From NCBI RefSeq assembly GCF_036226745.1, contig NZ_CP109013.1, positions 8,370,001 through 8,434,000 of the forward strand: 64,000 nt of DNA, written 5' to 3'. Below the pieces are notes generated by a model. The model was not told where the DNA came from. It worked only from the letters and a program-made list of their open reading frames with translations, and did no database searches. Below, piece by piece: positions 1 to 54,396 of the stretch; the first letter of the stretch is position 1; every line of letters begins with the position of its first letter. This DNA comes from Streptomyces sp. NBC_00683. Its GTDB lineage: Bacteria > Actinomycetota > Actinomycetes > Streptomycetales > Streptomycetaceae. The position numbers and the translations under genes are program-made.

Positions 1-630
1 CGCCGCGTCGACCGCCTCGAAGCGCTGCGCGGCGAACTGGAGGCGGAAGGCGCCGTGGTCCAGGTGCTCGACCTGGACATCACCGACGAGCAGGCCGTGG
101 CCGCCGCCGTACGCTCCACCGTCGACACGCTCGGCCGACTCGACATCCTGGTGAACAACGCCGGGCTGATGCTGCTGGGACCGGTGGAGAACGCCGACAC
201 CACCGACTGGGTCCGGATGATGGACACCAACGTCATGGGCCTGATGTACATGACGCACGCGGCCCTCCCGGAACTGATCAGGAACCAGGGCACAGTCGTC
301 CAGATCTCGTCCATCGCCGCCCGCGTCGTCGGACGCGGCAGTGCCGTCTACAACGCCAGCAAGTTCGCCGTCAACGGCTTCAGCGAGGGGCTGCGCCAGG
401 AGGTCACCGAGCGCGGAGTACGCGTGGTGGTCATCGAGCCGGGCACCGTGGAGACCGAACTGCGCGACCACATCACGCACGCCCCCTCCAAGGCGGCGAT
501 CGCCGAACGAGTGGCCAAAATACGACAGTTGCAGAGCGAGGACATAGCCGACGCGGTCCTGTACGCCGTCACCGCGCCCCCGCACGCCACCGTCAACGAG
601 ATCTTCATTCGCCCCACCGACCAGGCCTGA
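1..630 (+). CDS. car: Clavulanate dehydrogenase (clavaldehyde reductase), 5'-truncated by window edge
   Basis: Short-chain dehydrogenase/reductase; the reading frame is open from base 1, so the N-terminal Rossmann glycine motif lies outside the window. Visible SDR marks are the ILVNNAG motif, the catalytic Ser in ISSIA, the YNASK (YxxxK) pair, and an end reading FIRPTDQA. The stretches LLGPVENADTTDW, LRQEVTERGVRVVVIEPGT and FIRPTDQ agree closely with my recollection of S. clavuligerus clavulanic acid dehydrogenase, the NADPH-dependent enzyme for the last step, clavulanate-9-aldehyde to clavulanic acid. The clavam genes further right support this over a generic SDR. It is followed by its own hairpin, so claR is probably transcribed separately. 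Confidence 0.88.
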   Translation, partial: RRVDRLEALRGELEAEGAVVQVLDLDITDEQAVAAAVRSTVDTLGRLDILVNNAGLMLLGPVENADTTDWVRMMDTNVMGLMYMTHAALPELIRNQGTVVQISSIAARVVGRGSAVYNASKFAVNGFSEGLRQEVTERGVRVVVIEPGTVETELRDHITHAPSKAAIAERVAKIRQLQSEDIADAVLYAVTAPPHATVNEIFIRPTDQA

Positions 631-644
631 ACCACGCTCCTCCC

Positions 645-673
645 GGCGGGCGCCGCACTGCGCGGTGCCCGCC
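645..673 (+). terminator. Hairpin after car
   Basis: A 12-bp stem (645-656 with 662-673, one G-T pair) with a 5-nt loop begins 15 bp after the car stop codon. No T-tract follows, as is usual in Streptomyces. It separates car from claR. Confidence 0.6.
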
Positions 674-798
674 GCCGTGCTGTCCGGGGCCGCTTGCGGT
701 GAGGGGAGCGAGAGGAGAGAACGCCTGCCTAACGTGAGCCGCAACAGGCCGTCACAGGTGAAGAAGAGGCGTCATCCATAACCGTAAGGAAGCCGTCC

Positions 799-2265
799 GT
801 GCCTTCTGCGATACACGTGCCCTCCGTTCCCGACCGGTTGACGCGGTTGCCCCTCTCGCGTTCGGATCTGCGGCTGCTGGACGCGATCGGGCAGTGCGGT
901 GACCTCCCCGAAGCCGCCCGCAGGGCGGGGCTGAGAGCGGCAGCCGCCCAGCGCCGGCTCGACCGGCTGGACCAGGCCACCGGCCTGGGACTGACGCTGC
1001 GCGGCGCGCGTACCGCACGGCTGAGCCCGGACGGCGCCCGCGTGCTCGTAGCCGGCCGGCGGTTCTTCCGCCAGGTCGACCAGGCCGTACAGACCGAGAT
1101 CTACGGGCGCGGCAGCGAGGCGCTGAACGCACCCCGCATCCTGAACATCGCCACCGCCGAACCGCTCATGGAGGACCTGGTCGAGGACGCGGCCGACACG
1201 CTGGGCATCCTCCTCTCCGTCAGCCACGACACACCGCACCAGGTGCTCCGCCAGCTCGCCGGGTACCGGGTGGACGCCGCGCACACCTGGGGCCTGAACG
1301 CCCTCTCCGACGCGGTCGACCGCACCGTGCGCACGTACGAAGTCCTGGACGACCCGCTCTGGGTGACGCTGCCCCTCGGACACCCGCTGGCGGGCCGTGA
1401 CACGGTCTCCCTCGCCGATCTGCGGGACGACAACTGGGTGTCCGAGGCCGGGCCCCAGGCCGAGGTCCTGGTGAGCCGCGTCTACCAACTGGCGGGTCTC
1501 ACCCCGCCCGCCCGCATCCAGGTCACCGGGGCGTCGGTGGCCCGGGGGATGCTGCGGCGCGGAGACGCCATCGGCCTCGGCTCCCCGGCCTGCCCCGCCG
1601 TGTTCGCCCCCTCGCTGGTCCGACGCTCGCTGGTCGAGCGGCCCCGGCGGGCCGCCGGACTCCTGGTCGATCCCACCGTCGTCCCCGGCGCCCTCGCCCA
1701 GCAGCTGGCCGCGCTGCTCACCGCCCGCTGCCTGAGCCGGTTCACCCGGCACCACGGGGACATGCTGGGCGATCCGTGGTGGGCCGAATGGCTACGCGGG
1801 CAGCGAGCGGGGCTGGAGCGGCGCACCGAAGCCGCACGCAGCCTCCAGGCCCCGCCGGCGCTGCCCGACGAGTCGATCCAGGTCGATGTGGAGGACCTCC
1901 ATCTGCTGCGCGCGGTGTCCGCCCACGGCAGCATCAACCGTGCCGCGACCGTTCTGTCCATCAGCCAGTCGGCTCTCACCCGTCGTATCCACCGACTCGA
2001 ACTCCGTCTGGGTGCAGGGCTGTTGCTACGCAGCTCGCGCGGCACGGACCTGACGGCGCCGACCCGGCAGTTCCTGGCACGGCTGGCCGGCTTCGAGGCC
2101 GAACTCCATGCGGTGGGCCTCACGGGCGGCGCGGGGGAGGCCCTGCCGCATGCGGAGCCGGGCGGCGGCACGCAGCGCCGCACGCACCGGGGCGGCGCGG
2201 TGCGTGCGGGACGGACCGCGCCCGAACGGACCGCGGTGCGGTCCGCAGTCGCCGGCCGGAACTGA
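799..2265 (+). CDS. claR: ClaR-type pathway regulator, LysR-like with two HTH domains
   Basis: A 488-residue regulator with GTG start and GTAAGGA 8 nt upstream. A LysR-type winged HTH at about residues 20-95 is followed by an effector-binding-like region (about 110-320) and then a second LysR-type HTH at about 355-425 (LRAVSAHGSINRAA, then SQSALTRRIHRLE). Two HTH units, one at each end, are the recorded peculiarity of ClaR, which in S. clavuligerus activates the late genes from clavaminate to clavulanate; that protein is about 431 residues, so this one is longer. It lies next to car and oppA1, as ClaR does. It is convergent with oppA1, with 52 bp and a hairpin between. Confidence 0.85.
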   Translation: MPSAIHVPSVPDRLTRLPLSRSDLRLLDAIGQCGDLPEAARRAGLRAAAAQRRLDRLDQATGLGLTLRGARTARLSPDGARVLVAGRRFFRQVDQAVQTEIYGRGSEALNAPRILNIATAEPLMEDLVEDAADTLGILLSVSHDTPHQVLRQLAGYRVDAAHTWGLNALSDAVDRTVRTYEVLDDPLWVTLPLGHPLAGRDTVSLADLRDDNWVSEAGPQAEVLVSRVYQLAGLTPPARIQVTGASVARGMLRRGDAIGLGSPACPAVFAPSLVRRSLVERPRRAAGLLVDPTVVPGALAQQLAALLTARCLSRFTRHHGDMLGDPWWAEWLRGQRAGLERRTEAARSLQAPPALPDESIQVDVEDLHLLRAVSAHGSINRAATVLSISQSALTRRIHRLELRLGAGLLLRSSRGTDLTAPTRQFLARLAGFEAELHAVGLTGGAGEALPHAEPGGGTQRRTHRGGAVRAGRTAPERTAVRSAVAGRN

Positions 2266-2279
2266 CACTGCGGCGGGAG

Positions 2280-2304
2280 GGCCGGCGGGCAAGGTCCGCC
2301 GGCC
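2280..2304. terminator. Bidirectional terminator between claR and oppA1
   Basis: A perfect 9-bp stem (2280-2288 with 2296-2304) and 7-nt loop lie midway between the two convergent stop codons. The stop codons are themselves part of an outer TGACAC/GTGTCA inverted repeat (2263-2268 and 2315-2320). Confidence 0.7.
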
Positions 2305-2317
2305 GCCCCGGCGGGTG

Positions 2318-3979
2318 TCAGCGGGCGCCCAGCGCGACGTAGTCGTACATCCCGAAGGACCCCGTGACGAACACGTTGCGCGCGTCGGGGTGGCGGTAGA
2401 GCAACGAGCGCGGATAGAGGTAGGGCACGATCACGGCATGGTCCATGGTCAGCCGGTCGATGCGGTGCCAGATGGCCGCGCGCTCCTCCAGGTCGCCGCT
2501 GACGGCACCCCGGTCGAGCAGGGCGTTGATCTCCGGGTCGTCCAGCTCACCCATGTTCTGGTTGCCGCGCTCCTTGATCGCGCGCCCATCCACGATCTGC
2601 TGGAAGAAGCCGTATCCGTCGGGGAAGTCGGCCCCCCACCCGAACATGATGATTCCGATGCCGTGCTCGCGCAGGTACGAGGGGCTGCCGCCGTAGCGGT
2701 CGAAGTAGTCGCCGGACGGGAAGTCCAGCACCTCGGCCTCGATGCCGACGCGGGCCAGCCCGGCCGAGAGCGCCTCGGCCGCCCGGTACTCCTTGAGGCG
2801 GTCCTTGCGGGCCGCGATCTTCGTGCGGAAGCCGTCCGGCAGGCCGGCCAGGGCCAGTTCGGCGCGGGCCGCCTCCAGGTCCCCGGTGCCGTCCTCGCCG
2901 ACGGGGTAGCGGTCGAAGGGCTGGTAGCCGTCGATGGTCGGCGGAAGGATCGTGGTGGCGATGTCACCGCCGACGGGGCCTCCGTACGCCGCTTGCATGG
3001 CCGCCTTGTCGGTGGCGAACTGCACCGCGCGCCGGCAGTGCACGTTGTCGAACGGGGTGATCCGGCTGGACAGGCAGTAGATCCAGGTGAAACCGGTCAG
3101 CGGGTTGTCGGCGTTGGCCCGCAGCGCGGGGTCGGCCAGGATGCGTTCCTGGACAGCGGGCTGCACCCCGAATCCCGCGAGGTCGATGTGCGCCTCCCCG
3201 GCCAGCAGCATCAGGTCCACCTCGTGCGGGTCCTTGCCCAGGTGCACCTCGACGCGCTCGGCCCGCTGCCGCCGTACGGGGTCGGTCGCCGGGTCCCAGT
3301 GGGGGTTGCGCTCCAGGACGACGAGCCTGCCGCGCTCGTAGGACTCGACACGGTACGGTCCGGTCGCCACGGGGCCGAGCCGGTAGCCGATACCGGTGTC
3401 CCGGGCCCTGGGGACCGGAGTGGTGCTCGGCATGGTGGCCAAGAGGTCCATGCCGGCGAAGGGCTCGGTCAGCCGCAGCACCAGGGTGCGGTCGTCGGGG
3501 GTCTCGACGGTGAGCGGACCGTCCACCTCGGGCTCGCGCCAGGGGCCGCCGTAGTCGGTGCCCAGCAGGTGACGGAAGTAGGTGGGGCCGACGCCCAGCA
3601 CGTCCGTACCGTAGTTGCTCCTGGCGATCGCGTACTTGACGTCCGCCGAGACGACGGGGGTGCCGTCCTCGTAACGCAGGCCCGGACGCAGCCGGTACGT
3701 CCAGGTCCGCCCGCCGTCCGAGGCCTCACCGAGCGACTCGGCCAGGTCGGGGACCAGTCGCTGGCCGGCCTTGCCGGGCGCGGTGTCGAAGGTGACCAGT
3801 GTCCGGCCGATCAGGCGCAAGAAGTTCCAGGTGTACGCGTAGTACGTGTTGCCGGGGTCGAGCGAGTCGAAGTCGTCGGTGCGCACCAGGCGGAGGGTTC
3901 CGCCCAGCGTGTCGGTCGGGGCGACCACGCCGTCGACGGCGGCGTCGAAGCCGGTGGTGCCCGACTGTTCGGTCTCCAT
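2318..3979 (-). CDS. oppA1: Oligopeptide-binding protein of the clavulanate cluster (OppA1-like)
   Basis: A 553-residue family-5 extracellular solute-binding protein (ABC peptide-binding type). The start METEQSGTTG is chosen because GAGAAGGG lies 8 nt upstream; an in-frame start 75 bp earlier adds no signal sequence. SBP_bac_5 marks include GGTLRLV near the N-terminus, the DGRTWTYRLRPGLRYEDGTP-type segment split over residues ~90-110, and a C-terminal hinge segment. Clavulanate clusters carry oppA1 and oppA2; both are needed in S. clavuligerus and were shown to bind peptides and arginine. No signal peptide or lipobox is visible from either start, which is odd for a permease-type binding protein. 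Adjacent claR and car support the assignment. Confidence 0.85.
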   Translation of the reverse strand: METEQSGTTGFDAAVDGVVAPTDTLGGTLRLVRTDDFDSLDPGNTYYAYTWNFLRLIGRTLVTFDTAPGKAGQRLVPDLAESLGEASDGGRTWTYRLRPGLRYEDGTPVVSADVKYAIARSNYGTDVLGVGPTYFRHLLGTDYGGPWREPEVDGPLTVETPDDRTLVLRLTEPFAGMDLLATMPSTTPVPRARDTGIGYRLGPVATGPYRVESYERGRLVVLERNPHWDPATDPVRRQRAERVEVHLGKDPHEVDLMLLAGEAHIDLAGFGVQPAVQERILADPALRANADNPLTGFTWIYCLSSRITPFDNVHCRRAVQFATDKAAMQAAYGGPVGGDIATTILPPTIDGYQPFDRYPVGEDGTGDLEAARAELALAGLPDGFRTKIAARKDRLKEYRAAEALSAGLARVGIEAEVLDFPSGDYFDRYGGSPSYLREHGIGIIMFGWGADFPDGYGFFQQIVDGRAIKERGNQNMGELDDPEINALLDRGAVSGDLEERAAIWHRIDRLTMDHAVIVPYLYPRSLLYRHPDARNVFVTGSFGMYDYVALGAR

Positions 3980-4135
3980 GTCCCAGCCCTTCTCGCGGTG
4001 ATTTCCGCGCAAGTCTGCGGGTGCGCGGCTGCCCGGAGAGGGGCGGGGAGGCATGGGCGCATAGCCGACGGCGGGTCGGTATAGCGGGAGAGTTCGGTGA
4101 GAGGTGGTGGAGAGCCCCGGCTGATTGGCTCGCGT

Positions 4136-4190
4136 CCCCCCACGCGCGAAGCGGACGCCCGCTTCCCCCCACGCGCGACGCGGGCGTCCG
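4136..4190. repeat. Interlaced direct and inverted repeats in oppA1/SGNH divergent promoter region
   Basis: The 14-mer CCCCCCACGCGCGA occurs at 4136-4149 and again at 4165-4178 (29-bp period). Interlaced with it is a perfect 11-bp inverted repeat, 4152-4162 with 4180-4190. The element lies between the divergent oppA1 (start 3979) and the secreted hydrolase gene (start 4210), ending 19 bp before the latter, so it may be an operator or an mRNA leader hairpin. Confidence 0.6.
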
Positions 4191-4209
4191 GACGAGAGGC
4201 GAGTAGAAC

Positions 4210-7200
4210 GTGTCCCGAAGAAGGAAATGGCATATACCTGTCATCACCGTCGCGGCTGCGGCATTGCTGGCGGGCTACCCGTCGGTGTCGATGGCCAAGA
4301 CCCCCACCCCACCCCCCGGAGCCGCCCAGGGGTGGTCCCAGAAGGACGAGGCCGACGCTGCCAAGCCTGGTCCCGCCGAGCTCCCCGAGGCCGTTCCGGC
4401 CGGCGACCGTGCGGAACTGCTCGGCTCCGGCTACCGCACCTCCGACGACCTGGCCTGGACGACTTCGGGTGACGCCACCGGCTTCCACGTCATGGTCGCC
4501 GCCGCCGAGGACGGCTACCACTGGCGGACCGCGGCGACGCTGTCCGAGCCAGGCTTCGACACCGACACCTGGATCGGCAACGCCTGCCTCACCGCCTCAG
4601 GCAAGCGCGCCGCCGTCACCTACGCGCCCCGCACCTTCACCAACAAGCCCGCGCTGATGACCCGCGGCGCCTTCACCGCGATCGTCGACCTGACGACCGG
4701 CGCGGTCACCAAGCTCCCCGTCCAGTCCAGCCTGAGCTACTTCTCACCCGGCTGCGGCACCACGGAGAAGGCCGTCTTCTCGCAGTTCTCCGACGACGAA
4801 TCGGAACGCAACGAGACCCGTCTCGTCGGCGTGGACACCGCGAGCGGCAAGGCGGCGAAGCCGCTGAAGCTGCCCGGCCAGGTCACCTCCGCCGTCCCCC
4901 TCGCGGACGGCTACGCCGCCGCGCAGGGCGCCCGCCTGGTCCGCGTCACCACCTCCGGCGACGTACGCGTCGCCGCCCGTACGGCAGCGGTGCCCTTCCA
5001 GCTCACGGCTGCCGCGGACGGCTCGGTCGTCTACATCGACCGGCCCGGCACCGACCGGTCCGCGAAGACCAAGGCCGTCACCGAGCGCGCGGAGGTCCGG
5101 CGCGCCCCGGCCTCGCTCTTCGGCGCCGCCGCCGAGGCCACCGGAACCACCCGACGCCTGGCCACCGGCGCACTCGCCGACTTCGACCTGTCCCGCGCCG
5201 CCCGCACCGGCACGGTCTACGTCACCGGGAAGGCCGAGGCCGCCGGCACCCTGCCCGCGTCCGTGCGCATGCCCTCGGGTGTGGCCAAGGACGCGGTCCT
5301 GTCCACCCGGGGCGACGCCGCCGTCACCACCGCATGGGCCGACGGCAAGGACTCCAGGATCTCGCCGCAGGAAGCCGCCTCGGCGCGGACCGCACGGACC
5401 GGGATGAAGTTCCTGGACACCGGACGCAGCGTCACCCTGGACGCCAGGCCCGGCACGACGGTCGGCTCGACCGCGAAGACAGCGGAGGGCCTCGTCACCT
5501 CCCCGGCACTCACCCGCGGGACCGCGGCGGCGGCACCGAAGCTCGCGGCGGCCTCACCGACCAATCCCGTCGAGGACGAGCGCTACTGCTCGGTGCCGCG
5601 CGGAGACGTCCGCAAGCAGGCCTTCCAGCCCACCCCGCGGCAGGTCGAGTGGGCCGTGGACCAGGCCGTGGTCGGGAAGCTCAACACACACGTCTCCCGT
5701 GCCGCCAACTGGAAGAACACCGGGATGACGGCCGCCTACCAGCCGCAGTCCCTCTTCCCCCTCAAGACCATGGCGGGCGACCCCAACGGAACACCTGACG
5801 CGGCCGACGGATACCACATTCCCGCGCAGGTGATGCTGGGCGTGACCGCTCAGGAATCCAACATGTGGCAGGCCACCAGGTTCGCCGTACCGGGTGTCAC
5901 GGCGAACACCCTGATCGGCAACTACTACGGCATCAGCCACGGTGCCGACGGGGAGACCCCTGATCCGTGGGCCGTCAACTGGGCCGCTTCCGACTGCGGT
6001 TACGGCATCGTCCAGGTGACCGACGGCATGCGCATGGCCGGGCACGAGAAGCCCGGTGAGACGGCGCTGTCCGTGCAGAAGCAGGAGGCCGTCGCCCTCG
6101 ACTACACCGCCAACATCGCCGCGGGCGTCAACATCCTCGTGGACAAGTGGAACCAGACGTACAGCGCCGGGATGACCGTCAACGACGGCGGACCGGAGTA
6201 CATCGAGAACTGGTTCTTCGCGCTCTGGGCGTACAACTCCGGCTTCTACCCCCAGTCCAGCGCCGGGTCGCACGGCGGCCACTGGGGCGTCGGCTACACC
6301 AACAACCCGGCCAACGCGCTGTGGAAGGCCAACCGCACCCCGTTCCTGGAGAATTCGGGCGGCGGGGACGACTACTCCCACGCCGCCCACCCGCAGGACT
6401 GGCCCTACCAGGAGAAGGTCATCGGCTGGGCCGCCCGCCCGATCTCGGCGATGTTCGCCCCGGGCGACTTCCAGCCCGGATACCGCGCAGCCTGGTGGAC
6501 GGACCCGCTCTACCGCACCTCGGCCAAGCCGCCGCTCGGGACGTTCTGCGACTCCTCCAACAACTGCGACCCCAGCAAGATCAAGGAGGGCGACACCGAC
6601 ACCAACGGGGCGTGCCAGCTCAACAACCCGGCGGACGAGTTCTTCCTGCACTGCTGGTGGAACAAGAAGGCGGCCTGGAAGAACTGCGAGTCCGCGGCCA
6701 CCTGCGGATTCGCCCTGCACCGCTTCGACGCCACCTATCCCGAACAGCCCGACGGCAACGCCTACCCGCCCCGGTGCTCCAGCGGGCTCCCCTCCGGTAC
6801 GTATGTGATCGACGACGTGGCCTCGGGCGTCACCCCGGCCGGTTCGGCCGCGCGAAGTTGCGGGGCGACGACCTCACCCGGCACCTTCGGCTTCACCTTC
6901 TCGGCCGACGGCGCCAACTACCCGGGCAAGATCGACACCCATCAGATCGGGGCCGGCTACGGCAACCACTTCTGGTTCTCGCACACCAGGAATCAGGCGA
7001 CCGGTGACGGCGCCCGGATGCGTACGACCGGCACCTGGACCCTGACCAACGGCATGACCGGCTGGGCCCGGGTCTGGGTGCACCTCCCCGACCACGGAGC
7101 CCACACCCGGCAGGCCACCTACACGATCTCCGGGACCAACAGCACCAGCCCGGTACGCGTGCACCCGCAGCGCGTCCTGGAGAACAAGTGGGTCTCCCTC

Positions 7201-8286
7201 GGGGTGTTCCAGTTCACCAGCACCCCGAAGATCGCCCTCTCCACGCACGCGGCCGACGGCAACGGGTCCGAGGACGTCGCATGGGACGCCGTCGGCTTCC
7301 AGCCGCTGTCGGCCAAGCCCAAGGACATGGTCGTCGCGATGGGCGACTCCTACTCCTCGGGCGAGGGCGCCTCGGCCGCGGGCGGCGTCGACTACTACAA
7401 GGAGACCAACTACCGGGACCCCAGCAACCCCTCGACCCGCGACGCCTGCCACCGCTCGACCAAGGCATGGTCCCGTCAGGCCACCATCCCGGGCCGTTCG
7501 GCATCCGTGGGATCCCTGGACGACAGCCGTTCCGCGGCCATGGACTACCACCTCGTCGCCTGCTCCGGCGCCCGCACGTACAACATCGCATCCGTCGGCG
7601 AGAACGGCGAACTGCCCCAGCTGTCCAAGGGCTACCTCGACCAGAACACCACGCTGGTGACGATCTCCGTCGGCGGCAACGACGCCCGGTTCGCCTACAT
7701 CATCCAGAAGTGCATCTTCGGCGGCATCGGCTGGCCGACGCTGTGCCAGAACCAGACGTTCGAGGACGACGACTCCCACGTGGACGACGCGGCCTACCAG
7801 GGGCTGGACATCGGTGTGGCGGCCGAGCGCCTGGCCAAGGAACGGGTGCGTCCGGCCATCACCGACGCCCTGAAGAAGATCCAGGCGAAGGCACCCAACG
7901 CCAAGATCGTCCTGATGGGGTACCCGCCGCTGCTGGAGGGGGCGGGGCAGTGCATCCCCGGCATCGGCACCGAGGAGGCCCCCTGGCTGAACAGCATGGC
8001 CAGCACCCTCGCCACCGAGATGCAGGGCGCCGTGGACGACGCCAAGACCGCCGGAGCCAAGGCCTGGTACTCCAACCCCGCCCAGAACTTCGCGGGCAAG
8101 GCCGTCTGTGGCGACCCCGAACAGGTCCACGGCATCGTGCTGGACCTGGTGGAGAGCGACGAGCCGCAGATCGACTGGCCGATCCTGCAACTCGGAGCCT
8201 CCGCCCAGTCCTTCCATCCGAAGGTCGGAGGAGCCCGGCTGTACGCGGACTCCCTCGAGCGGACGATGGGGGGCATGGGTCTCTGA
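4210..8286 (+). CDS. Large secreted lytic-transglycosylase-like / SGNH hydrolase fusion
   Basis: A 1358-residue exported protein; GTG start with GAGGCGAG upstream and a signal peptide (MSRRRKWH, hydrophobic core, cleavage near SMA-KT). Residues about 30-440 look like a propeller or repeat region without recognised motifs. A lysozyme/SLT-like domain follows (GVTAQESNMWQ near 545, GIVQVTDG near 597, WAYNSGF near 670), then Cys-rich segments, a golvesin-type beta-sandwich (about 880-1034), and a C-terminal SGNH/GDSL hydrolase with block I GDSYSSGEG (~1043), block III GGND (~1154) and FHP (~1336) for the catalytic His. Such fusions occur singly in Streptomyces genomes. Here it sits within a beta-lactam cluster, between oppA1 and the SARP gene; a role in wall turnover is inference. 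Confidence 0.8.
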   Translation: MSRRRKWHIPVITVAAAALLAGYPSVSMAKTPTPPPGAAQGWSQKDEADAAKPGPAELPEAVPAGDRAELLGSGYRTSDDLAWTTSGDATGFHVMVAAAEDGYHWRTAATLSEPGFDTDTWIGNACLTASGKRAAVTYAPRTFTNKPALMTRGAFTAIVDLTTGAVTKLPVQSSLSYFSPGCGTTEKAVFSQFSDDESERNETRLVGVDTASGKAAKPLKLPGQVTSAVPLADGYAAAQGARLVRVTTSGDVRVAARTAAVPFQLTAAADGSVVYIDRPGTDRSAKTKAVTERAEVRRAPASLFGAAAEATGTTRRLATGALADFDLSRAARTGTVYVTGKAEAAGTLPASVRMPSGVAKDAVLSTRGDAAVTTAWADGKDSRISPQEAASARTARTGMKFLDTGRSVTLDARPGTTVGSTAKTAEGLVTSPALTRGTAAAAPKLAAASPTNPVEDERYCSVPRGDVRKQAFQPTPRQVEWAVDQAVVGKLNTHVSRAANWKNTGMTAAYQPQSLFPLKTMAGDPNGTPDAADGYHIPAQVMLGVTAQESNMWQATRFAVPGVTANTLIGNYYGISHGADGETPDPWAVNWAASDCGYGIVQVTDGMRMAGHEKPGETALSVQKQEAVALDYTANIAAGVNILVDKWNQTYSAGMTVNDGGPEYIENWFFALWAYNSGFYPQSSAGSHGGHWGVGYTNNPANALWKANRTPFLENSGGGDDYSHAAHPQDWPYQEKVIGWAARPISAMFAPGDFQPGYRAAWWTDPLYRTSAKPPLGTFCDSSNNCDPSKIKEGDTDTNGACQLNNPADEFFLHCWWNKKAAWKNCESAATCGFALHRFDATYPEQPDGNAYPPRCSSGLPSGTYVIDDVASGVTPAGSAARSCGATTSPGTFGFTFSADGANYPGKIDTHQIGAGYGNHFWFSHTRNQATGDGARMRTTGTWTLTNGMTGWARVWVHLPDHGAHTRQATYTISGTNSTSPVRVHPQRVLENKWVSLGVFQFTSTPKIALSTHAADGNGSEDVAWDAVGFQPLSAKPKDMVVAMGDSYSSGEGASAAGGVDYYKETNYRDPSNPSTRDACHRSTKAWSRQATIPGRSASVGSLDDSRSAAMDYHLVACSGARTYNIASVGENGELPQLSKGYLDQNTTLVTISVGGNDARFAYIIQKCIFGGIGWPTLCQNQTFEDDDSHVDDAAYQGLDIGVAAERLAKERVRPAITDALKKIQAKAPNAKIVLMGYPPLLEGAGQCIPGIGTEEAPWLNSMASTLATEMQGAVDDAKTAGAKAWYSNPAQNFAGKAVCGDPEQVHGIVLDLVESDEPQIDWPILQLGASAQSFHPKVGGARLYADSLERTMGGMGL

Positions 8287-8344
8287 TCCACGGCACCCGA
8301 CGGGCCCTCCCCACCAGGGGAGGGCCCTGGACCGGAGGTGAGCG

Positions 8345-8635
8345 ATGAGAAAGGTGTCCCGCCGCGGTGACATCACGGCGGCCCTGCTGCTCCTCCTGCC
8401 GGACGCGGTCCTGCTGGCGGTCCTGCTCTTCGGGGTGCTGATCTCCGGGGGCCTGACGGGCAGTCCGGACCGGGTCGCGGCGGGCCGCGAGGCGTCCCGG
8501 GCCGCGCTGGTCTGCCTGGCCGCCCTCCTGCTCTCCGGCGGCATCGCGGCCGCCGTGCGCGCATGGGTCACCGCGGCAGTGCAGGTGGTCGTGCTGGGAG
8601 GCGCGGCCCTCGCCTGTACGGGGTTCGGCTCCTGA
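8345..8635 (+). CDS. Small integral membrane protein
   Basis: A 96-residue protein with three hydrophobic segments (about residues 12-34, 52-70 and 74-92) and a basic N-terminus. The ATG has GGAGGTGAGCG directly upstream, and the gene begins 58 bp after the secreted hydrolase gene, so the two probably form one transcript ending at the strong hairpin just after this gene. No family recognised. Confidence 0.6.
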   Translation: MRKVSRRGDITAALLLLLPDAVLLAVLLFGVLISGGLTGSPDRVAAGREASRAALVCLAALLLSGGIAAAVRAWVTAAVQVVVLGGAALACTGFGS

Positions 8636-8683
8636 GACACCGCAGCGCTCCCCGGCAATGAGGCCGGGGAGCGCTGCGGTGTC
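8636..8683. terminator. Strong bidirectional terminator, 21-bp perfect stem
   Basis: A perfect 21-bp inverted repeat (8636-8656 with 8663-8683) with a 6-nt loop starts right after the TGA of the small membrane protein gene and ends 9 bp before the stop codon of the convergent SARP gene. Confidence 0.9.
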
Positions 8684-8691
8684 AGGGCGGG

Positions 8692-9480
8692 TCAGTGCCG
8701 GGCCATGCCCGGCACCGCCGAGAGCATGTCGGCGTCCTGGCGGAGGATCGCCCGCTCCAGCGTGGTCAGCCTGGGGCCGGGGTCGATTCCCAGCTCGTCG
8801 GTCAGGGTATTGCGGGCCCTTCGGAACACGGCGAGCGCGTCGGCCTGCCGGCCACTGAGATACAGCGCCTGCATCAAATGCGCGTACGGCTCCTCCCGGA
8901 GGGGATGAAGGGCTATGAGGTCGGTGAGTTCACCAATGGCCTCCTCGTATTGCCCCAGAGATATTTCAAGGCAAATGCGCTGTTGCAGTGCGGCGACGCG
9001 TTCCTCTTCCAGCCGGGCCGCGCGGGTCTGCAGCGCACTGCTCGAAATCGTGGCCAGAGCAGGGCCCCGCCAGAGGGCGAGTGCGTCCCTGAGGAGTTCC
9101 AGTGCCTCCTCCTTGAGGTCGGCACGGACCAGTTTCTTCGCCGTCGCGACGTTGTGCCGGAAGACGTCGCTGTCGATCTCGCAGTGAGCGGAGTCCAGTT
9201 GGTAACCGGAAGCCGTCGACAGGACGGTTTCCTGCGGCGCGCCGACCATGGCCAGTGAGCGGCGGATCATCCACACGCTGGTCTGTAACTGGCCGGCGGC
9301 GGTCCGGGGCGGACGTTCACCCCAGAGGTGGGTGATGAGTTCGGGCGTACAGACGGCCCTGCCCGACACAAGTGCGAGGGCGGTGAGAACCCGGAGCTGT
9401 CGCTGACCGGCGAGGGGGACCGGCATGTTCCGGGAAAGCATGGAGATCGGACCCAATATGCGAATCTGTACGCCGGCCAT
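8692..9480 (-). CDS. SARP-family pathway activator
   Basis: A 262-residue regulator with an OmpR-type winged-helix DNA-binding domain (IRILGPISML ... LRVLTALAL ... LITHLWGERPP ... GYQLD, residues ~4-95) followed by a bacterial transcriptional activator domain (RDALALWRGPAL ... RLEEERVAALQQR ... REEPYAHLMQALY, ~100-245). The start at 9480 (MAGVQIRILG) has GGGAG upstream and gives normal SARP length; upstream in-frame codons add unrelated sequence. The size matches CcaR, the SARP controlling cephamycin and clavulanate genes in S. clavuligerus, but I cannot tell orthology from the sequence. It has a long (525-bp) upstream region with a DasR-like site and a dyad next to the start. Confidence 0.85.
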   Translation of the reverse strand: MAGVQIRILGPISMLSRNMPVPLAGQRQLRVLTALALVSGRAVCTPELITHLWGERPPRTAAGQLQTSVWMIRRSLAMVGAPQETVLSTASGYQLDSAHCEIDSDVFRHNVATAKKLVRADLKEEALELLRDALALWRGPALATISSSALQTRAARLEEERVAALQQRICLEISLGQYEEAIGELTDLIALHPLREEPYAHLMQALYLSGRQADALAVFRRARNTLTDELGIDPGPRLTTLERAILRQDADMLSAVPGMARH

Positions 9481-9516
9481 AGGGGTTCTCCCGTTCTGCC
9501 CGTCCATGGCTGAATT

Positions 9517-9586
9517 CCACTGCCATGAACTGCTGGATTTTCGCACGCAATATTTTTGTATGCGCTGGTTCATGAAAATACAGTGG
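9517..9586. promoter_or_regulatory. Large imperfect dyad at the SARP promoter
   Basis: Arms CCACTG-C-CATGAAC (9517-9530) and GTTCATG-N6-CAGTGG (9568-9586) flank an AT-rich centre that itself holds a CGCA/TGCG pair (9543-9546 and 9561-9564) around AATATTTTT. It lies 37-106 bp upstream of the SARP start codon, in much more AT-rich DNA than its surroundings. This is a good position for promoter plus operator. Confidence 0.55.
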
Positions 9587-9954
9587 TTCCGGCTTCGGCC
9601 ACTTCGCGTGTAGCGGGGTCTCGGCTCTCTCGATTCGGGAGAGTAATCAGCCAACCTTGCCCCGTCAATGAAGCCGGGACGGGGGGCGGCTGAAAACGGT
9701 CGTACCGGAACCGGCGAATAGCATGCGCGGGGAAACTGCAGATTACGTAGGGGAGATGGAGTGGCCGGGAGTGCATGATCGGGAACTGCGCGGAGTAATC
9801 GCCGGGGCATATGCCCCTCGCCGTGTGATGGGGTCGCGGCTCCCGGAATGCCGCGCCCAGGCGGAGTGTGTGCTTCCGCTGTGAAGGAGGCGAGGGTCGT
9901 GTGCGCCTGCTGAGGTTACGCAGCGCACTTGTCCGGACTCGAAATCGCCGGTTG

Positions 9955-9970: not shown

Positions 9971-10004
9971 AATGGCAGAAATCATACGCCGAGGAGGCCG
10001 TGCG

Positions 10005-10086: not shown

Positions 10087-10135
10087 CCCGTGGTTCGGAT
10101 ATCCGGCCCGCTCGACGCCCAGGCGGATCGGCGGT

Positions 10136-11146
10136 TCAGGACTCCGGGAGCTCCGTGACGTCGAGCAACTCCAGGTGCCGGGGCGTCAGCACACGCGTGC
10201 CGCCGCCCGGCTTCCGTCGCTCGGCTGCCTGCATCAGTGCAGTCGCCGCGTCCGGGGACGCGGTGCGGGAGATCCCCGAGTCGCCCAGTGGGGTCACCAT
10301 GTCGTCGTGATGGCAGGGCAGGAGCACGGGCGGCGACCCCAGTGCGGACAGCAGCCGGTCCGGGTAGCCATGGACGGCGGCGTGTCCGCTCATCCCGATC
10401 ACCGCCACATCGGGCCGTGCGCCTGCCAGTTCCCGCTCCGCGACGTTGCTGGTGCCGGTCAGAAGGACGGACGGTCCCCCCTCGACGGACACCTGGAAGG
10501 CCAGTGTCTGCCCCTCGACGAGGTCGCCCAGGGTCCGGGGCCGCGCGGGAACGGAGTCCCGCGTCCCGGGGGCGAAGGACGTGTAGTCCTGCTGCCTGCT
10601 GTGCAGACTGCGGAACACCTCCACGCTGTAGCCGTCGAACTGGAGGTGGTCGCCCCCGCTCACCGCCACCACGTCCGCCATGCGATGTGCGGGGGTGCCC
10701 ATCGCGCCCAGCAGATGACGCGACGTGGTGTCGCAGAGCGTCCGGATGCGCCGGCCGCCCCAGCCCGGCCGGGACAGCAGGTGCGGCACGTCGGCGAGAT
10801 GGTCGAAGTGACCGTGGCTGATCAGGATCAGCTCGGGTGTCCCGGTCAGTCCCTCCTCCGCCACGTGCTCCACGGCCTCCGGGTCCAGGCGCAGCGGTAG
10901 CGCCGGATCGAGGGCGCCGTCCCCGTCGGCGTACGGCATCCGACTCAGATACGGATCGAAGAGCACGCTGCGGCCCGCGAAGGACAGCTCCCAGCCGGCC
11001 ACGCCCAGCCAGCGCAGGCCGAGCGCGGTTCTCTTCGGTGCCCGGCGGGCGTGTGCGGTCGGCAGGGGAGCGGCGCCGCCGACCAGCAGGCCCGCCGCCC
11101 CCGCGCCCAGCGCGCCCTGGAGGACCGACCTTCGCGACTGACTCAT
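10136..11146 (-). CDS. Tat-exported metallo-beta-lactamase-fold (UlaG-like) hydrolase
   Basis: A 336-residue protein with a twin-arginine signal (SRRSVLQG, then an Ala/Gly-rich core and AHA-RR cleavage region). The metal motif HGHFDH is at residues 111-116; further His/Asp ligands are plausible in LLTGTSNV and near GHAAVHG, and a late PCHHDD motif lies near 290. This is the UlaG/YcbL-like MBL branch, not the classical class B beta-lactamases. GAGGTGGCAC precedes the ATG, and 100 bp separate it from oat on the same strand, so co-transcription is possible. Cluster location allows a role in clavam self-protection or processing, but that is inference; the substrate is unknown. Confidence 0.75.
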   Translation of the reverse strand: MSQSRRSVLQGALGAGAAGLLVGGAAPLPTAHARRAPKRTALGLRWLGVAGWELSFAGRSVLFDPYLSRMPYADGDGALDPALPLRLDPEAVEHVAEEGLTGTPELILISHGHFDHLADVPHLLSRPGWGGRRIRTLCDTTSRHLLGAMGTPAHRMADVVAVSGGDHLQFDGYSVEVFRSLHSRQQDYTSFAPGTRDSVPARPRTLGDLVEGQTLAFQVSVEGGPSVLLTGTSNVAERELAGARPDVAVIGMSGHAAVHGYPDRLLSALGSPPVLLPCHHDDMVTPLGDSGISRTASPDAATALMQAAERRKPGGGTRVLTPRHLELLDVTELPES

Positions 11147-11246
11147 GTGCCACCTCGTTCACGTTGTGCTGATCACCCGTCACCCTACGGATCGGACGCG
11201 AGGAGGCTGCACATTTGAGTCAGTGGCGGGGCCGGGGCGTGGTGGC

Positions 11247-12425
11247 TCAGGTGGTGTACTCGGAGTTCAGCCGGACGTATCCCTCGGTCAGGTCGCAGCC
11301 GTAGACGGTGAACTCCCCGTCACCGATGCCCAGTCCGATACCGATCAGGACCTCCTCGCCGCGCATGTGCTCGGCGACCTCGGCCCGCAGTTCGGCGTCC
11401 CCGGGGCCGTCGGCGCGCTGGGGGTACACGAGGGTCCCGCCGAAGCGGACGGTGACGTTCTCCTGGAGGATGTCGGTGTCGTCGGTGCACTTGCCGATCG
11501 CCATCGTGACCCGGCCCCAGTTGGGGTCGCTGCCGTGCACGGCGGTCTTGACCAGCGGTGAGTTGACCACCGTCTTGCCGACGCGCTTGGCCTGGGCCGC
11601 GTCCCGGGCCCCGGTGACCCGCACCTCGATGAGCTTGCTCGCACCCTCGCCGTCGGAGGCGATGTTCTTCACCAGGGCGAGCGCCACCTCGTGCAGCGCT
11701 TCCTCGAACTCCACCGGATCCACGTCGCCGGCCAGGCCGTTGGCGAACAGGACCGCCGTGTCGCTCGTCGAGGTGTCGGTGTCGATGGACACCGCGTTGA
11801 ACGTACGGTCCATGACGCTCCGGAAGATCCGGTCCTGCTCGCCCTGGGGCAGCCGGGCGTCGGTGGCGAAGAACGTCAGCAGGGTCGCCATGTCGGGCTC
11901 CAGCATGCCCACACCCTTCGCGATGCCGACGAGCGTCGCCTCACCGCATCGCACCCTGACCAGCTTGGGCCGGGTGTCGGTGGTCATGATGGCCTGCGCC
12001 GCACGCTCGAACCCGCCCTCGGGGAAGGGCCAGGACAGCGTCTTGATGTGTGCGCGGATCTCCTCCATGGGGTACTGGAGTCCGATCACCCCGGTGGAGG
12101 CGATCAGCAGATCGTCCTCGGCGAGGCCGGTGGCGGCGGCCACCGAGTTCCGGATCTCGCGCGCGTTGCTCTCGCCCTCCGGGCCCGTGGCCACATTGGC
12201 GTTCCTGGCGATGACGACGACCCCGCGCGACTGGCCGTCGGCTGCCCCCGCCCGGCTGAGCACGACGCTCGGGCCGGCGAAGCGCGACTTGGTGAACACC
12301 GCGCTGACCTGCGTGGGCACGGTCGAGGCCAGCACCGTGAAGTCGTCCCGCCCATCGTCCGACAGCCCTACCGGGGCGGTGTGCACCATGAACCCCGCGG
12401 GGTCCCGGGTGGTCGTACCGGTCAT
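11247..12425 (-). CDS. oat: Ornithine acetyltransferase of clavam clusters
   Basis: A 392-residue ArgJ/OAT-family N-terminal-nucleophile enzyme that transfers acetyl between N-acetylornithine and glutamate (or arginine). The autoproteolysis motif KGVGMLEPDMA-TLLTF places the nucleophile Thr at residue 181, the position known for S. clavuligerus OAT2, and the end NSEYTT agrees with my recollection of OAT2. The residues DTDTSTSDT and GSDPNWGRV belong to the active site. In clavulanate producers this gene is thought to feed the arginine precursor pool. It is divergent from ceaS across a 213-bp regulatory region. A primary-metabolism argJ is less likely because no arg genes are near. Confidence 0.9.
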   Translation of the reverse strand: MTGTTTRDPAGFMVHTAPVGLSDDGRDDFTVLASTVPTQVSAVFTKSRFAGPSVVLSRAGAADGQSRGVVVIARNANVATGPEGESNAREIRNSVAAATGLAEDDLLIASTGVIGLQYPMEEIRAHIKTLSWPFPEGGFERAAQAIMTTDTRPKLVRVRCGEATLVGIAKGVGMLEPDMATLLTFFATDARLPQGEQDRIFRSVMDRTFNAVSIDTDTSTSDTAVLFANGLAGDVDPVEFEEALHEVALALVKNIASDGEGASKLIEVRVTGARDAAQAKRVGKTVVNSPLVKTAVHGSDPNWGRVTMAIGKCTDDTDILQENVTVRFGGTLVYPQRADGPGDAELRAEVAEHMRGEEVLIGIGLGIGDGEFTVYGCDLTEGYVRLNSEYTT

Positions 12426-14354
<1,929 letters not shown>

Positions 14355-14356
14355 TC

Positions 14357-15886
14357 ATGGCGCATACATTCCCCGCCGCCACGGGGTTCCTGGTCTCCGC
14401 CCAGCAGGGCGGGGACCGGGCCCCCGGTCCCGTCTTCGCCACCAGGGGCGCCCACGAAGCCGTGGCCGAAGCCCTCCGTACCCAGACCCTGAACGCCGTA
14501 CTCGTCCACTCGGGTTCGGCCGAGAACGCCGTTGCCCGCTCCGGCGACACGGCACTCGTCCTGGCCGGCGAGCTCTACAACCGGGAGGACCTGCTCACCC
14601 TCCTCCCGGCCGGAGCCGACGCCCACACGGACGCGCAACTGCTGCTGGCCCTGCTGGGCGTCTACGACCTGCATGCCTTCCGGCTGCTCAACGGCCGTTT
14701 CGCGGCGGCCGTGGCCCTCGGCGACCGGGTGCTCCTGGCCACCGACCACGCGGGCTCCGTGCCCCTCTACACGCTGCCGGCCCCCGGCCGTGTACTCGCC
14801 GCCACCGAGATCAAGGCCCTCGTCCCTGCAACGGCCAAGGCCCCGCCGTCCGGACGGCCCGTCGCCGAGGCGCGCAGGGTCCGCCGGGTGCCGGGCGTCC
14901 ACCAGGTGCCCGCCGGCACGGTGCTGGACATCGACGTCCGTACCGGCACCGCCGTGCCCACCCGGATCTGGACCCCGCCGGTGTCCCGGCGGATCCTCCC
15001 CGAGGCCGACGCGACCGCCGTCGTACGCGAGACGCTGGAGCGGGCCGTCCGGGCCCGTACGGGCGGCAGCACCCCGTTGGTCGTGCTCTCCGGAGGAATC
15101 GATTCTTCCGGCGTCGCAGCGCTCGCCGCCGCGCACACCCACGGTCCCCTGGACACGCTGTCCATGGGCACCGACACCTCGGACGAGTTCCCCGAGGCAC
15201 GTGTGGTCGCCACCCACCTGGGCTCCGCCCACCGGGAGATCACCGTCCCGACGGCGGACCTGCTCGGCCAACTCCCGTACGCGATCTGGGCGTCCGAGTC
15301 CGTCGACGCGGACATCATCGAGTACCTGCTGCCGCTCACCGCCCTGTACCGGGCCCTCGACGGGCCCGCCCGCCGCATCCTCACCGGCTACGGAGCCGAC
15401 ATCCCGCTCGCCGGCATGCACCGCGAGGACCGGCTGCCCCAACTGGACACAGCCGTCGCGTTCGACATGGCCACCTTCGACGGACTCAACGAGATGTCAC
15501 CGGTGCTCTCCGGTATCCAGGGCCACTGGTCGACCCATCCGTACTGGGACCGCGACGTACTTGACCTGCTCGTGTCGCTGGAGGCCGGGCTCAAACGCCG
15601 CCACGGCCGCGACAAATGGGTCCTGCGGGAGGCGATGAGCGCCCTCCTGCCGCGGGAGACCGTCACCCGGCCGAAGCTCGGTGTGCACGAGGGCTCGGGG
15701 ACGACCTCGTCCTTCAGCCTCCTGCTGTTGGACGCCGGCGTGCCCGACGCGGACATCCACCGGGCCAAGTCGCTGGTGGTGCGGGAGATCTTCGACCGGG
15801 TGGTCGTCGAGGGCCTGCCACCCGCCGAGGTGAGCACCGCCGACGCCGTGCACCAGGCAGCCGCACGGCTGAAGGAGACCGAGTGA
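14357..15886 (+). CDS. bls: Beta-lactam synthetase
   Basis: A 509-residue ATP-dependent enzyme closing the beta-lactam ring of carboxyethylarginine to deoxyguanidinoproclavaminate. It is an asparagine-synthetase-B relative; residue 2 is Ala rather than the glutaminase Cys, as expected for BLS. The PP-loop SGGIDSS is at 245-251, and Tyr345 (LTGYGAD), Glu379 (GLNEMSP) and Lys440 (RPKLGVHEG) correspond to the catalytic Tyr348/Glu382/Lys443 of the S. clavuligerus enzyme. It starts 2 bp after ceaS, suggesting translational coupling. Confidence 0.95.
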   Translation: MAHTFPAATGFLVSAQQGGDRAPGPVFATRGAHEAVAEALRTQTLNAVLVHSGSAENAVARSGDTALVLAGELYNREDLLTLLPAGADAHTDAQLLLALLGVYDLHAFRLLNGRFAAAVALGDRVLLATDHAGSVPLYTLPAPGRVLAATEIKALVPATAKAPPSGRPVAEARRVRRVPGVHQVPAGTVLDIDVRTGTAVPTRIWTPPVSRRILPEADATAVVRETLERAVRARTGGSTPLVVLSGGIDSSGVAALAAAHTHGPLDTLSMGTDTSDEFPEARVVATHLGSAHREITVPTADLLGQLPYAIWASESVDADIIEYLLPLTALYRALDGPARRILTGYGADIPLAGMHREDRLPQLDTAVAFDMATFDGLNEMSPVLSGIQGHWSTHPYWDRDVLDLLVSLEAGLKRRHGRDKWVLREAMSALLPRETVTRPKLGVHEGSGTTSSFSLLLLDAGVPDADIHRAKSLVVREIFDRVVVEGLPPAEVSTADAVHQAAARLKETE

Positions 15887-15936
15887 ACCACCCCAGACTC
15901 CGTACCGGCCGCCAGCGGCCCCGACAGGAGGCATGA

Positions 15937-17862
<1,926 letters not shown>

Positions 17863-17981
17863 CCGTCCTCTGCCCACGGCCCGTCCGTCGTGCTGCCCGC
17901 GCCGGTCCGCTCTCGGCTCACTCTCCCGGCGCTCTCCGTTGTGGCCCGGCCCCCTGGGGCAGCGGTTAGCGTGTCGGACAG

Positions 17982-18004
17982 GTGACCGGAGGCGGTCCGG
18001 TCAC
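17982..18004 (+). promoter_or_regulatory. Inverted repeat in the PBP leader
   Basis: GTGACCGGA (17982-17990) and TCCGGTCAC (17996-18004) form a perfect 9-bp stem with a 5-nt loop, 48 bp before the PBP start codon. It may be an operator or leader hairpin, or the cas operon terminator. Confidence 0.5.
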
Positions 18005-18052
18005 GGGAGACGTCCGCAGAGGAATCCGCAGCAGACGAGGAGACAGCGCCAA

Positions 18053-19723
18053 GTGTCGGACCCCACATTGCAGCAGATGGCACGTCATGACCGCGCACGG
18101 CGCCGCGGATCGCGCAGAGGACCCGTGCTGGGTGTGGCGGTGGCCGTCGTCCTGGCGGCGGGTGCGGGCTGGTGGGGGTACCGGGCGTGGTCCGGGGACG
18201 GGACGGAGCGGGACCCCGAGGTGACCGCGGCCACCGAGAGACTCCAGTCGTTCCTCGGCGCGTGGGCGGCGGACGATGCCGCGAAGGCAGCGGCACTGTC
18301 GGACTCGCCGGAGAACGCCGAGTCGCTGCTGACCTCGGTCATGACGAACCTGAAACCCGCGAAGGCGGAGCTGTCGGCGGGGGAGGGCGAGAAGAACGAC
18401 AAGGGCGAGGTGACCGTCCCGTACACCGCGAAGTTCACCATCCCCGCCGTCGGCCTCTTCCGCTACGACTCCGAAGCGACCCTGGTGAAGAAGTCCGGGC
18501 AGTGGACCGTGGAGTTCGGCTCCCCGATGATCCACCCGCGGCTGAAACCGGGACAGACGCTCGCGCTGAAGACGGTGGCCGAGCGCGCCGCCGTACTCGA
18601 CGCCAACGGCGACGACCTGCAGGCCGCCTCGCTGCGCGGCTCGGTGGACGAACAGGGCAAGGGAACGTTCGGCCTGGAAGCGCGCTACGACAAGCAGTTG
18701 CGAGGCGGCGAGGGCGCGGCAACCAGTGAGGTGGTGATCGCCGACCGCCAGTCCGGTCAGGCCGAAACCTCCCTCACCAAGAGCTCCGCGAAGCCCGGCA
18801 CACCCGTGAAGACCACCATCGACCCCAAGGTGCAGGGCGCCGCGGCCAAAGCGATGGAAGGGCTGAAGGTGAACGCCGCGCTGATCGCCCTGGAGCCCTC
18901 GACCGGGAACATCCTCGCCGTCTCCAACCGTCCGGCAGGCGGCCTGAACCGCGCGCTGGCCGGCCAGTACCCGCCCGGGTCGACGTTCAAGGTGGTGACC
19001 GCGGCAGCGATGCTGAAGGCGGGCGTGAAGCCGTCCGACGTCATGGAGTGCCCCAAGTTCGCCCGTGTCGACGGGCAGCGGTTCGAGAACCAGAAACAGT
19101 TCACGCTGCCGGCGGGATCGACCTTCAAGGACTCCTTCGCGAAGTCCTGCAACACCATGTTCGTGGAGAACCGCGCCAAGGCGGGCGGCTCGGCCCTGCA
19201 CGACGCGGCTGCTGCCTTCGGGATCGGCGGCGTCTGGGACGTGGGCGACTCGACGTACGACGGATCGGTCCCGGTGAGCACCTCGGACAACGACCTCGCC
19301 GCGTCCACCATCGGTCAGGCCCGGGTGCAGGCCTCGCCACTGGTGATGGCGTCGATCGCGGCGACGGTGAAGGAGGGAACCTTCAAGCAGCCGGTGCTGG
19401 TGCCCGACGCGGTCAAGAAGAAGCACGAGGCGACCGCCAGGCTCGACCCCTCGGTGACCGGTGACCTGCGTGACATGATGCGGGCGACGGTGACGTACGG
19501 AGCGGGCAGCGCACTGACGGGAATTCCCGGGCAGCCGCACGCCAAGACCGGGACGGCGGAGTTCGGCGAGGAGAAGCCGCCGCGCACCCACGCCTGGATG
19601 ATCGGCTACCAGGGCGACAGCGACCTGGCGTGGTGCGTGATGCTGGAGGACGGCGGTTCGGGCGGCGCCGACGCGGGGCCGGTGGCGGCCAGGTTCCTGA
19701 AGGGGCTGACGGATGCGGGCTGA
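18053..19723 (+). CDS. Class B penicillin-binding protein (clavam cluster, PbpA-like)
   Basis: A 556-residue membrane-anchored transpeptidase. One TM helix (about 28-47) follows a basic cytoplasmic tail; a MecA-N/NTF2-like domain spans about 60-180 and the transpeptidase domain about 260-556. The active-site motifs are complete: Ser310-T-F-Lys313, Ser365-C-Asn367 and Lys498-T-Gly500. The GTG start has GAGGAGA upstream. PBPs border the S. clavuligerus clavulanate cluster and are taken as resistance determinants; altered beta-lactam affinity here is inference. It lies 190 bp after cas in the same direction. Confidence 0.85.
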   Translation: MSDPTLQQMARHDRARRRGSRRGPVLGVAVAVVLAAGAGWWGYRAWSGDGTERDPEVTAATERLQSFLGAWAADDAAKAAALSDSPENAESLLTSVMTNLKPAKAELSAGEGEKNDKGEVTVPYTAKFTIPAVGLFRYDSEATLVKKSGQWTVEFGSPMIHPRLKPGQTLALKTVAERAAVLDANGDDLQAASLRGSVDEQGKGTFGLEARYDKQLRGGEGAATSEVVIADRQSGQAETSLTKSSAKPGTPVKTTIDPKVQGAAAKAMEGLKVNAALIALEPSTGNILAVSNRPAGGLNRALAGQYPPGSTFKVVTAAAMLKAGVKPSDVMECPKFARVDGQRFENQKQFTLPAGSTFKDSFAKSCNTMFVENRAKAGGSALHDAAAAFGIGGVWDVGDSTYDGSVPVSTSDNDLAASTIGQARVQASPLVMASIAATVKEGTFKQPVLVPDAVKKKHEATARLDPSVTGDLRDMMRATVTYGAGSALTGIPGQPHAKTGTAEFGEEKPPRTHAWMIGYQGDSDLAWCVMLEDGGSGGADAGPVAARFLKGLTDAG

Positions 19724-54256: not shown

Positions 54257-54396
54257 GGTCACCCCTCCATCGTGAGGCCAGACATCCGCGAAGGCGGGGC
54301 TTTCGCCTCAAAGTAGCGAGGAGCGTGCGCTGTCAGGGCCGTTCCCATGCGCCGGGGCTGCCTCTGCCTACCCTCACTCATCTGAATCTGATCCGG

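Follow-up and report, generated by a model that had tools for sequence, protein, structure and literature searches.

The stretch of DNA analyzed here (the window) comprises 64,000 nucleotides, bases 8370001-8434000 of the single-contig genome of Streptomyces sp. NBC_00683 (NZ_CP109013.1, 8,519,659 bases), and starts about 150 kb before the right end of the contig. The locus at this left edge is almost certainly a complete clavulanic-acid-like gene cluster of the S. pratensis (S. flavogriseus) type, in which the ceaS-bls-pah-cas operon is inverted relative to oat. This layout is already known. The sole part not found in the literature searched is a regulatory map, which we put forward as a hypothesis and not as a first report: predicted boxes for the Streptomyces antibiotic regulatory protein (SARP) encoded in the cluster lie in three of its intergenic gaps, and the candidate site upstream of claR appears weaker than in the layout of S. 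clavuligerus.

Gene Content and Extent of the Cluster

Genes were identified with Pfam and NCBIfam profiles and by phmmer searches against solved structures (PDB). The gene set spans about 29 kb, from gcaS (-9273) to pcbR (19723). A preliminary description of this DNA, made from its letters, had confined the block to 1..19723, which was too narrow: cyp, fd, cpe, orf13, orf14, oppA2, orf16 and gcaS lie to the left of base 1, and with these late genes upstream the locus is very unlikely to be one for clavaminate only. Within the window, the order is car> claR> oppA1< nocE> 96-residue open reading frame (ORF)> SARP< orf11< oat< ceaS> bls> pah> cas> pcbR> (> forward, < reverse strand), with the following features, in which "same-type" denotes loci sharing this order.

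1..630, + strand (start at -113, outside the window): car, clavaldehyde/clavulanic acid dehydrogenase; phmmer top match 2JAH, E 2.9e-106, 246/247 residues
799..2265, + strand: claR, LysR-type regulator of 488 residues; Pfam HTH_1 and LysR_substrate
2318..4054, - strand: oppA1, solute-binding protein family 5; Pfam SBP_bac_5, E 1.3e-56
4210..8286, + strand: nocE homologue, secreted-protein-like, 1358 residues; Pfam Golvesin_C above and GDSL below the curated cut-off
8345..8635, + strand: membrane-like ORF of 96 residues; 66-78% identity in three of four same-type genomes
8692..9507, - strand: ccaR-type SARP activator, about 271 residues; Pfam BTAD, E 3.9e-47
10136..11146, - strand: orf11/blaB1, metallo-beta-lactamase fold with an HGHFD motif; Pfam Lactamase_B_3; 60-61% identity to S. 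jumonjinensis orf11
11247..12425, - strand: oat, ornithine acetyltransferase; phmmer 1VZ6, E 3.9e-197
12426..12638, no strand: shared oat/ceaS divergent promoter region; conserved blocks in an alignment of seven same-type loci including the window
12639..14354, + strand: ceaS, carboxyethylarginine synthase; phmmer 1UPA, 1074.5 bits
14357..15886, + strand: bls, beta-lactam synthetase; phmmer 1JGT, E 8.4e-206
15941..16891, + strand: pah, proclavaminate amidinohydrolase; phmmer 1GQ6, E 3.3e-178
16888..17862, + strand: cas, clavaminate synthase; NCBIfam ClavSyn_CS1, 568 bits (cut-off 450); phmmer 1DRT, E 6.1e-172
18077..19723, + strand: pcbR/pbpR, penicillin-binding protein; Pfam MecA_N and Transpeptidase

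The profile and structure matches bear out the earlier report of the clavaminate core genes together with car, claR, oppA1 and a penicillin-binding protein. The best PDB relatives of the named genes are enzymes of the clavulanate pathway, with matches far above chance, and all core genes from ceaS to gcaS are present with open frames. The catalytic residues, described as intact, are conserved in the four enzymes covered (H144/E146/H279 in CAS, Y348/E382/K443 in BLS, Ser-Tyr-Lys in CAD and T181 in OAT), as placed by hand on the alignments.

Among the late genes, cyp encodes a P450, orf13 an EamA, orf14 a GNAT, orf16 a FemAB-like and gcaS an ATP-grasp protein. The small ferredoxin gene fd was found from the reading frames and is 82-94% identical in four relatives, cpe (orf12) matches the structure of ORF12 (2XEP, E 1.3e-166), and the substrate-binding-protein matches of oppA2 fall under the curated cut-offs.

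The ceaS start is most likely the ATG at 12639 rather than the GTG at 12594, because the GTG is out of frame in the same-type genome G244 and the CEAS structure 1UPA aligns from query residue 16. For pcbR, the ATG at 18077 is most likely the start, and alignments begin there in three of the four same-type genomes. The ClaR protein is 60-68% identical to that of the loci with the two other layouts described below, and OppA1 84-90% identical to that of loci with the S. clavuligerus layout. The nocE homologue is 84-90% identical across the four same-type genomes; its label is based on domains, position and PMC6856088 rather than on a nocE reference sequence. A Pfam search gave no match for the 96-residue ORF.

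The longest ORF of the SARP gene extends to 9810, but its start is most likely at 9507. The protein is 81-95% identical in six of six same-type loci, against 42-44% in seven loci with the S. clavuligerus layout. Its gene has one TTA codon (codon 74 of 271). Five of six same-type SARP loci have none, the frame of L019 (a metagenome bin) being only 28 residues long in this comparison, and the sixth (L007, Streptomyces sp. SM10) has one elsewhere in the gene. Since the codon is not conserved, bldA/TTA control of the SARP was rejected as a feature of the type. In a scan of 21 genes, a set that did not include fd, one further TTA codon was seen, and it falls within the N-terminal extension of the SARP, which is itself doubtful.

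Gene Order in Other Genomes

A cas match was found in 27 of 392 genomes, including that of NBC_00683, and about 40 kb around cas were compared in ten other Streptomyces picked from the 26 remaining genomes; the counts below describe this selection and are not a census. The order of the window from gcaS to pcbR was observed in four of the ten (G231, G071, G052 and G244), which are those with a cas at least 85% identical to that of the window. It reads gcaS> orf16> oppA2> orf14> orf13< cpe< fd< cyp< car> claR> oppA1< nocE>, then the 96-residue ORF> (in three of the four), SARP< orf11< oat< ceaS> bls> pah> cas> pcbR>. The remaining six have other orders: the S. clavuligerus/S. jumonjinensis order, hereafter canonical, in G216, G040, G211 and G207, and a third order, that of S. 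fulvorobeus, in G081 and G057. Among 36 loci from named records, covering at most 10 kb on each side of cas, the visible part follows the order of the window in four (L005, S. silvae; L006, [Kitasatospora] papulosa; L007; and L008, S. clavifer).

This arrangement corresponds to a published one. In S. flavovirens, S. flavogriseus and others, blaB1 and ccaR were described as separating two conserved blocks, oppA1-gcaS and oat2-cas2, and pbpR as lying at the cluster end where the cephamycin cluster is absent (PMC9146315). The cluster of S. pratensis includes pcbR, orf11 and nocE, and many organisms were reported to have an identical one (PMC6856088); 21 organisms with the S. pratensis type were counted, 12 of them with a carbapenem cluster (PMC12482188). 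In S. pratensis ATCC 33331, the clavulanic-acid-like genes are Sfla_0550-Sfla_0565 (PMC4239341). The cluster of NBC_00683 likewise has the blocks oppA1-gcaS and oat-cas, which flank orf11/blaB1 and ccaR, and it ends with pcbR and has nocE inside; it shares with the S. pratensis type both the two-block layout and the gene content (nocE, ccaR, orf11/blaB1 and pcbR in addition to the core). The preliminary description of a rearranged clavulanic-acid-type cluster therefore stands with respect to the canonical layout, but the rearrangement is not new, and the layout itself merely adds one more genome of a known type.

The canonical order was available in S. jumonjinensis (L022), where it runs orf11< ccaR< pcbR< ceaS> bls> pah> cas> oat> oppA1> claR< car< cyp> cpe> orf13> orf14<. 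The core genes are the same in the window, and the block oppA1-claR-car-cyp-fd-cpe-orf13-orf14-oppA2-orf16-gcaS is collinear with that of the four canonical-type genomes and, up to orf14, with that of S. jumonjinensis (fd was outside that query set). However, the unidirectional ceaS-bls-pah-cas-oat-oppA1 order of the S. clavuligerus type is not found in the window, which differs from the reference as had been noticed: the ceaS-cas operon is inverted relative to oat, so that oat diverges from ceaS and has this gene instead of cas as its neighbor. Four ORFs, as counted before, separate oat from oppA1, and they are now assigned to orf11/blaB1, the ccaR-type SARP, the 96-residue ORF and nocE, the last lying inside the cluster. 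The window also differs from S. clavuligerus and S. jumonjinensis in a KGG instead of a KAG motif in Cpe and in having no match to isopenicillin N synthase. The S. fulvorobeus type shares the core genes and the KGG motif with the window, but in it claR and ceaS are divergent and oppA1 adjoins car; no oat match was found within the 40 kb compared.

A nocE homologue (60-61% identity) adjoins gcaS at the opposite end of the cluster in L093, L094 and L096, from the canonical-type genomes G040, G211 and G207; nocE accompanies these clusters at differing positions. A further arrangement was seen in L028, L029, L035 and L039 (Streptomyces spp., including S. wedmorensis), in which gcaS lies between bls and pah (ceaS bls gcaS pah cas) and orf16, oppA2, orf14 and oppA1 are divergent from the core operon (L028 without an orf16 match); car, cyp and cpe were unmatched within these loci. 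The rarer actinomycetes L030, L031, L032 and L034 have gcaS placed similarly.

Predicted SARP Boxes

In S. clavuligerus, CcaR binds to heptameric repeats that precede ceaS2 and claR (PMC3992018). Three predicted boxes were located in the window.

12551..12579, + strand: predicted SARP box upstream of ceaS in the oat/ceaS gap; three heptads with an 11-bp period, 17/18
4086..4114, + strand: predicted SARP box in the oppA1/nocE divergent gap; three heptads with an 11-bp period, 17/18
17910..17938, - strand: predicted SARP box in the cas/pcbR gap; 17/18

The oat/ceaS box reads CGGATAG-TGGAGAG-TGGAGAG and scores 17/18 in all seven same-type loci, window included; the heptad consensus was derived from this ceaS site after alignment, which makes its score circular and leaves those of the two other sites independent. 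The oppA1/nocE box scores 15-17 in all four same-type genomes covering the gap, and the cas/pcbR box 15-17 in all six other same-type loci. Four same-type genomes have scores of at least 15 in all three gaps, and two partial loci in both of the gaps that they contain.

When 104 kb were scanned with three NGGAGAG heptads, exactly three places reached at least 15/18, each with a score of 17, and these are the ceaS/oat, oppA1/nocE and cas/pcbR sites. Twenty first-order simulations gave on average 0.25 places at 15 or above and none at 16 or above, while at a score of 13 the 23 places observed equal the 22.1 simulated. A search of the window for two heptads with at most two mismatches returned four places against 0.59 expected, a number reached in one of 100 shuffles. 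Scores of 15-16 were also found outside these gaps in the 40-kb stretches of relatives, for instance inside oppA1 in G207 (16), to the left of orf11 in S. jumonjinensis (16), and in G216, G211 and G081 (15). In the 300 bp upstream of oppA1, all seven canonical loci have a maximum of 10-12, and the site of G207 lies just inside the gene.

Upstream of claR, the triple-heptad maximum is 11-13 in all five same-type genomes, compared with 14-17 in all seven canonical loci; it is 16 in the two loci of the third type, in a gap shared with ceaS. A two-heptad site is present at claR, scoring 11/12 in the window, 10 in G244 and 9 in the three others, values that 0.5% (11), 3.5% (10) and 33% (9) of 397 background windows reached. 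By eye, the site of the window sits at the position of the site in canonical promoters. The claim that claR has lost its SARP box was rejected on account of this persisting site and was cut to a weaker box. A gain of a box by pcbR was likewise dropped, as canonical pcbR shares the ceaS gap with its boxes and scores 14-15 in its own 300 bp upstream in three of seven loci.

On these scores we hypothesize that the boxes have been redistributed and that control of claR is weaker, without claiming its loss. The ccaR-type SARP of the cluster would most likely activate the early genes, oppA1/nocE and pcbR via the triple-heptad boxes. The inverted ceaS-cas block would retain a box of its own. The genes oat and oppA1 have lost their place behind cas and would adjoin boxes within shared divergent promoters. 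It is possible, although rather doubtful, that the rearrangement rewired regulation in this way, with the ceaS box kept and now shared with oat, a box at oppA1/nocE that is missing upstream of canonical oppA1, a separate box for pcbR and a weakened grip on claR. The cluster may then be set for early monocyclic inhibitors, transport and self-protection, with the ClaR-driven late arm off, as a stable adaptation and not a broken clavulanate cluster. Dropping the pcbR gain left the odds of this rewiring unchanged because the reading rests on oppA1/nocE and claR. In a full-text literature search, no description of CcaR heptamers in S. pratensis or S. flavogriseus was found; the one paper retrieved for S. 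flavogriseus is on S. clavuligerus.

Origin of the Inverted Operon

Quick trees were computed for cas, ceaS and oat; they left out L040 (a cas fragment), L006, L008, L017, L023 and L024 (apparent counterparts of genomes compared above) and, for each gene, loci matching at most 70% of the query. The type of the window forms one group in all three trees (SH-aLRT, the Shimodaira-Hasegawa-like approximate likelihood ratio test, 99 each). It is joined to the other clavulanic-acid-like Streptomyces types with values of 81 (cas) and 90 (ceaS), and the oat tree leaves this junction undecided.

A cluster with the order ceaS-bls-pah-cas-oat and no late genes nearby could have donated the ceaS-cas operon in a swap, which would account for its reversed orientation, and the cas of the window is indeed 83 and 81% identical to that of two Kitasatospora loci of this order versus 74-77% to canonical-type cas. 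Such a chimera is nonetheless very unlikely, since the trees place the type of the window with the canonical, the S. fulvorobeus and the Streptomyces gcaS-in-operon types, apart from those loci; the support for this placement is modest, and the trees gave no conflict in favor of a swap. These quick trees lend no support to the inverted operon having come from elsewhere.

Expected Product and Genome Context

In the established pathway, CeaS, Bls, Cas and Pah start from glyceraldehyde-3-phosphate and arginine and form monocyclic beta-lactam intermediates as well as clavaminate, and GcaS, OppA2, Cyp/Fd, Cpe, Orf13, Orf14, Orf16 and Car would form the late arm. S. pratensis transcribes its early genes, whereas the late ones, including cpe, were undetected, and it does not make clavulanic acid; when ceaS-bls is deleted, it loses a beta-lactamase inhibitory activity along with two monocyclic compounds predicted to be precursors (PMC12482188). 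If the cluster examined here works as in S. pratensis, its usual product would be an early monocyclic beta-lactam precursor and not clavulanic acid, and we infer that the strain behaves like S. pratensis. The predicted box map could fit this pattern of expressed early and silent late genes. Both ccaR and claR are reportedly expressed in S. flavogriseus, which, if it holds, argues against a lost activation of claR as the cause of the silent late genes. The suggestion that the altered order could change regulation or product is in keeping with the S. pratensis work, whether or not the inversion itself is the cause.

A working clavulanic acid producer, in which the altered order has no effect on the product, is very unlikely, even though the core genes known from the literature, ceaS through gcaS, are present and open and the catalytic residues are conserved in the four enzymes covered. 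The Cpe motif of the window is KGG, which was reported in two non-producers against KAG in producers, and the cpe gene of S. flavogriseus failed to complement an S. clavuligerus cpe mutant (PMC6478378). KGG was found in the window and in all four same-type genomes and KAG in all seven canonical-type loci; some canonical-type strains are not known producers, and the motif thus marks layouts rather than proven production. In addition, the organisms noted to produce clavulanate all have a cephamycin cluster linked to it (PMC12482188), while the isopenicillin N synthase of S. jumonjinensis, its identity checked, had as a query no match at E 1e-15 in any of the five same-type genomes, including that of NBC_00683. 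The query did match its own source genome, and the absence of cephamycin genes was assessed by this gene alone. A 5S clavam or clavaminate-only locus, with which the window shares ceaS, bls, pah and cas, genes common to the 5S clavam pathways, can practically be dismissed given the presence of car, cyp, fd, cpe, orf13, orf14, oppA2, orf16 and gcaS (5S-specific genes were not searched for).

Several points weigh against an S. pratensis-type cluster with an early precursor as its usual product. Its likeness to S. pratensis ATCC 33331 was drawn from published text and four relatives, and the trees join its type to the clavuligerus type weakly (81 for cas, 90 for ceaS). The KGG motif is not specific to the type, as both loci of the third layout (G081 and G057) also carry it. 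Finally, the enzymes of the strain look intact, which on sequence grounds leaves room for true clavulanate production.

The whole genome contains one bls match and one cas match, and seven further ceaS-like matches are 25-31% identical; no second set of ceaS, bls and cas was thus found genome-wide. One query of 410 residues from the pSCAT region of S. cattleya, which is unannotated there and which we take to be the carbapenam synthetase gene thnM, retrieved no close carbapenam synthetase from the genome and matched only bls (36%); the rest of the carbapenem cluster was not searched for. Among the S. pratensis-type relatives, the same query gave a 65% match in G052 and G071 and none such in G231 and G244. 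To the right of the cluster lie unrelated genes, including a GH11 xylanase with a cellulose-binding domain (31674-32768) and a GH15-family protein (37098-38987), and farther on a TerF-like vWA-domain protein (53507-54262).

Clavulanic acid is used in the clinic to inhibit beta-lactamases, and the published work leaves open why clusters of this type, complete as they look, are not seen to yield it. The predicted box map suggests an explanation, open to testing, for the published pattern of active early and silent late genes. As no close carbapenam synthetase was found in this genome, the strain could allow the clavam-type inhibitor to be studied by itself against a cleaner background.

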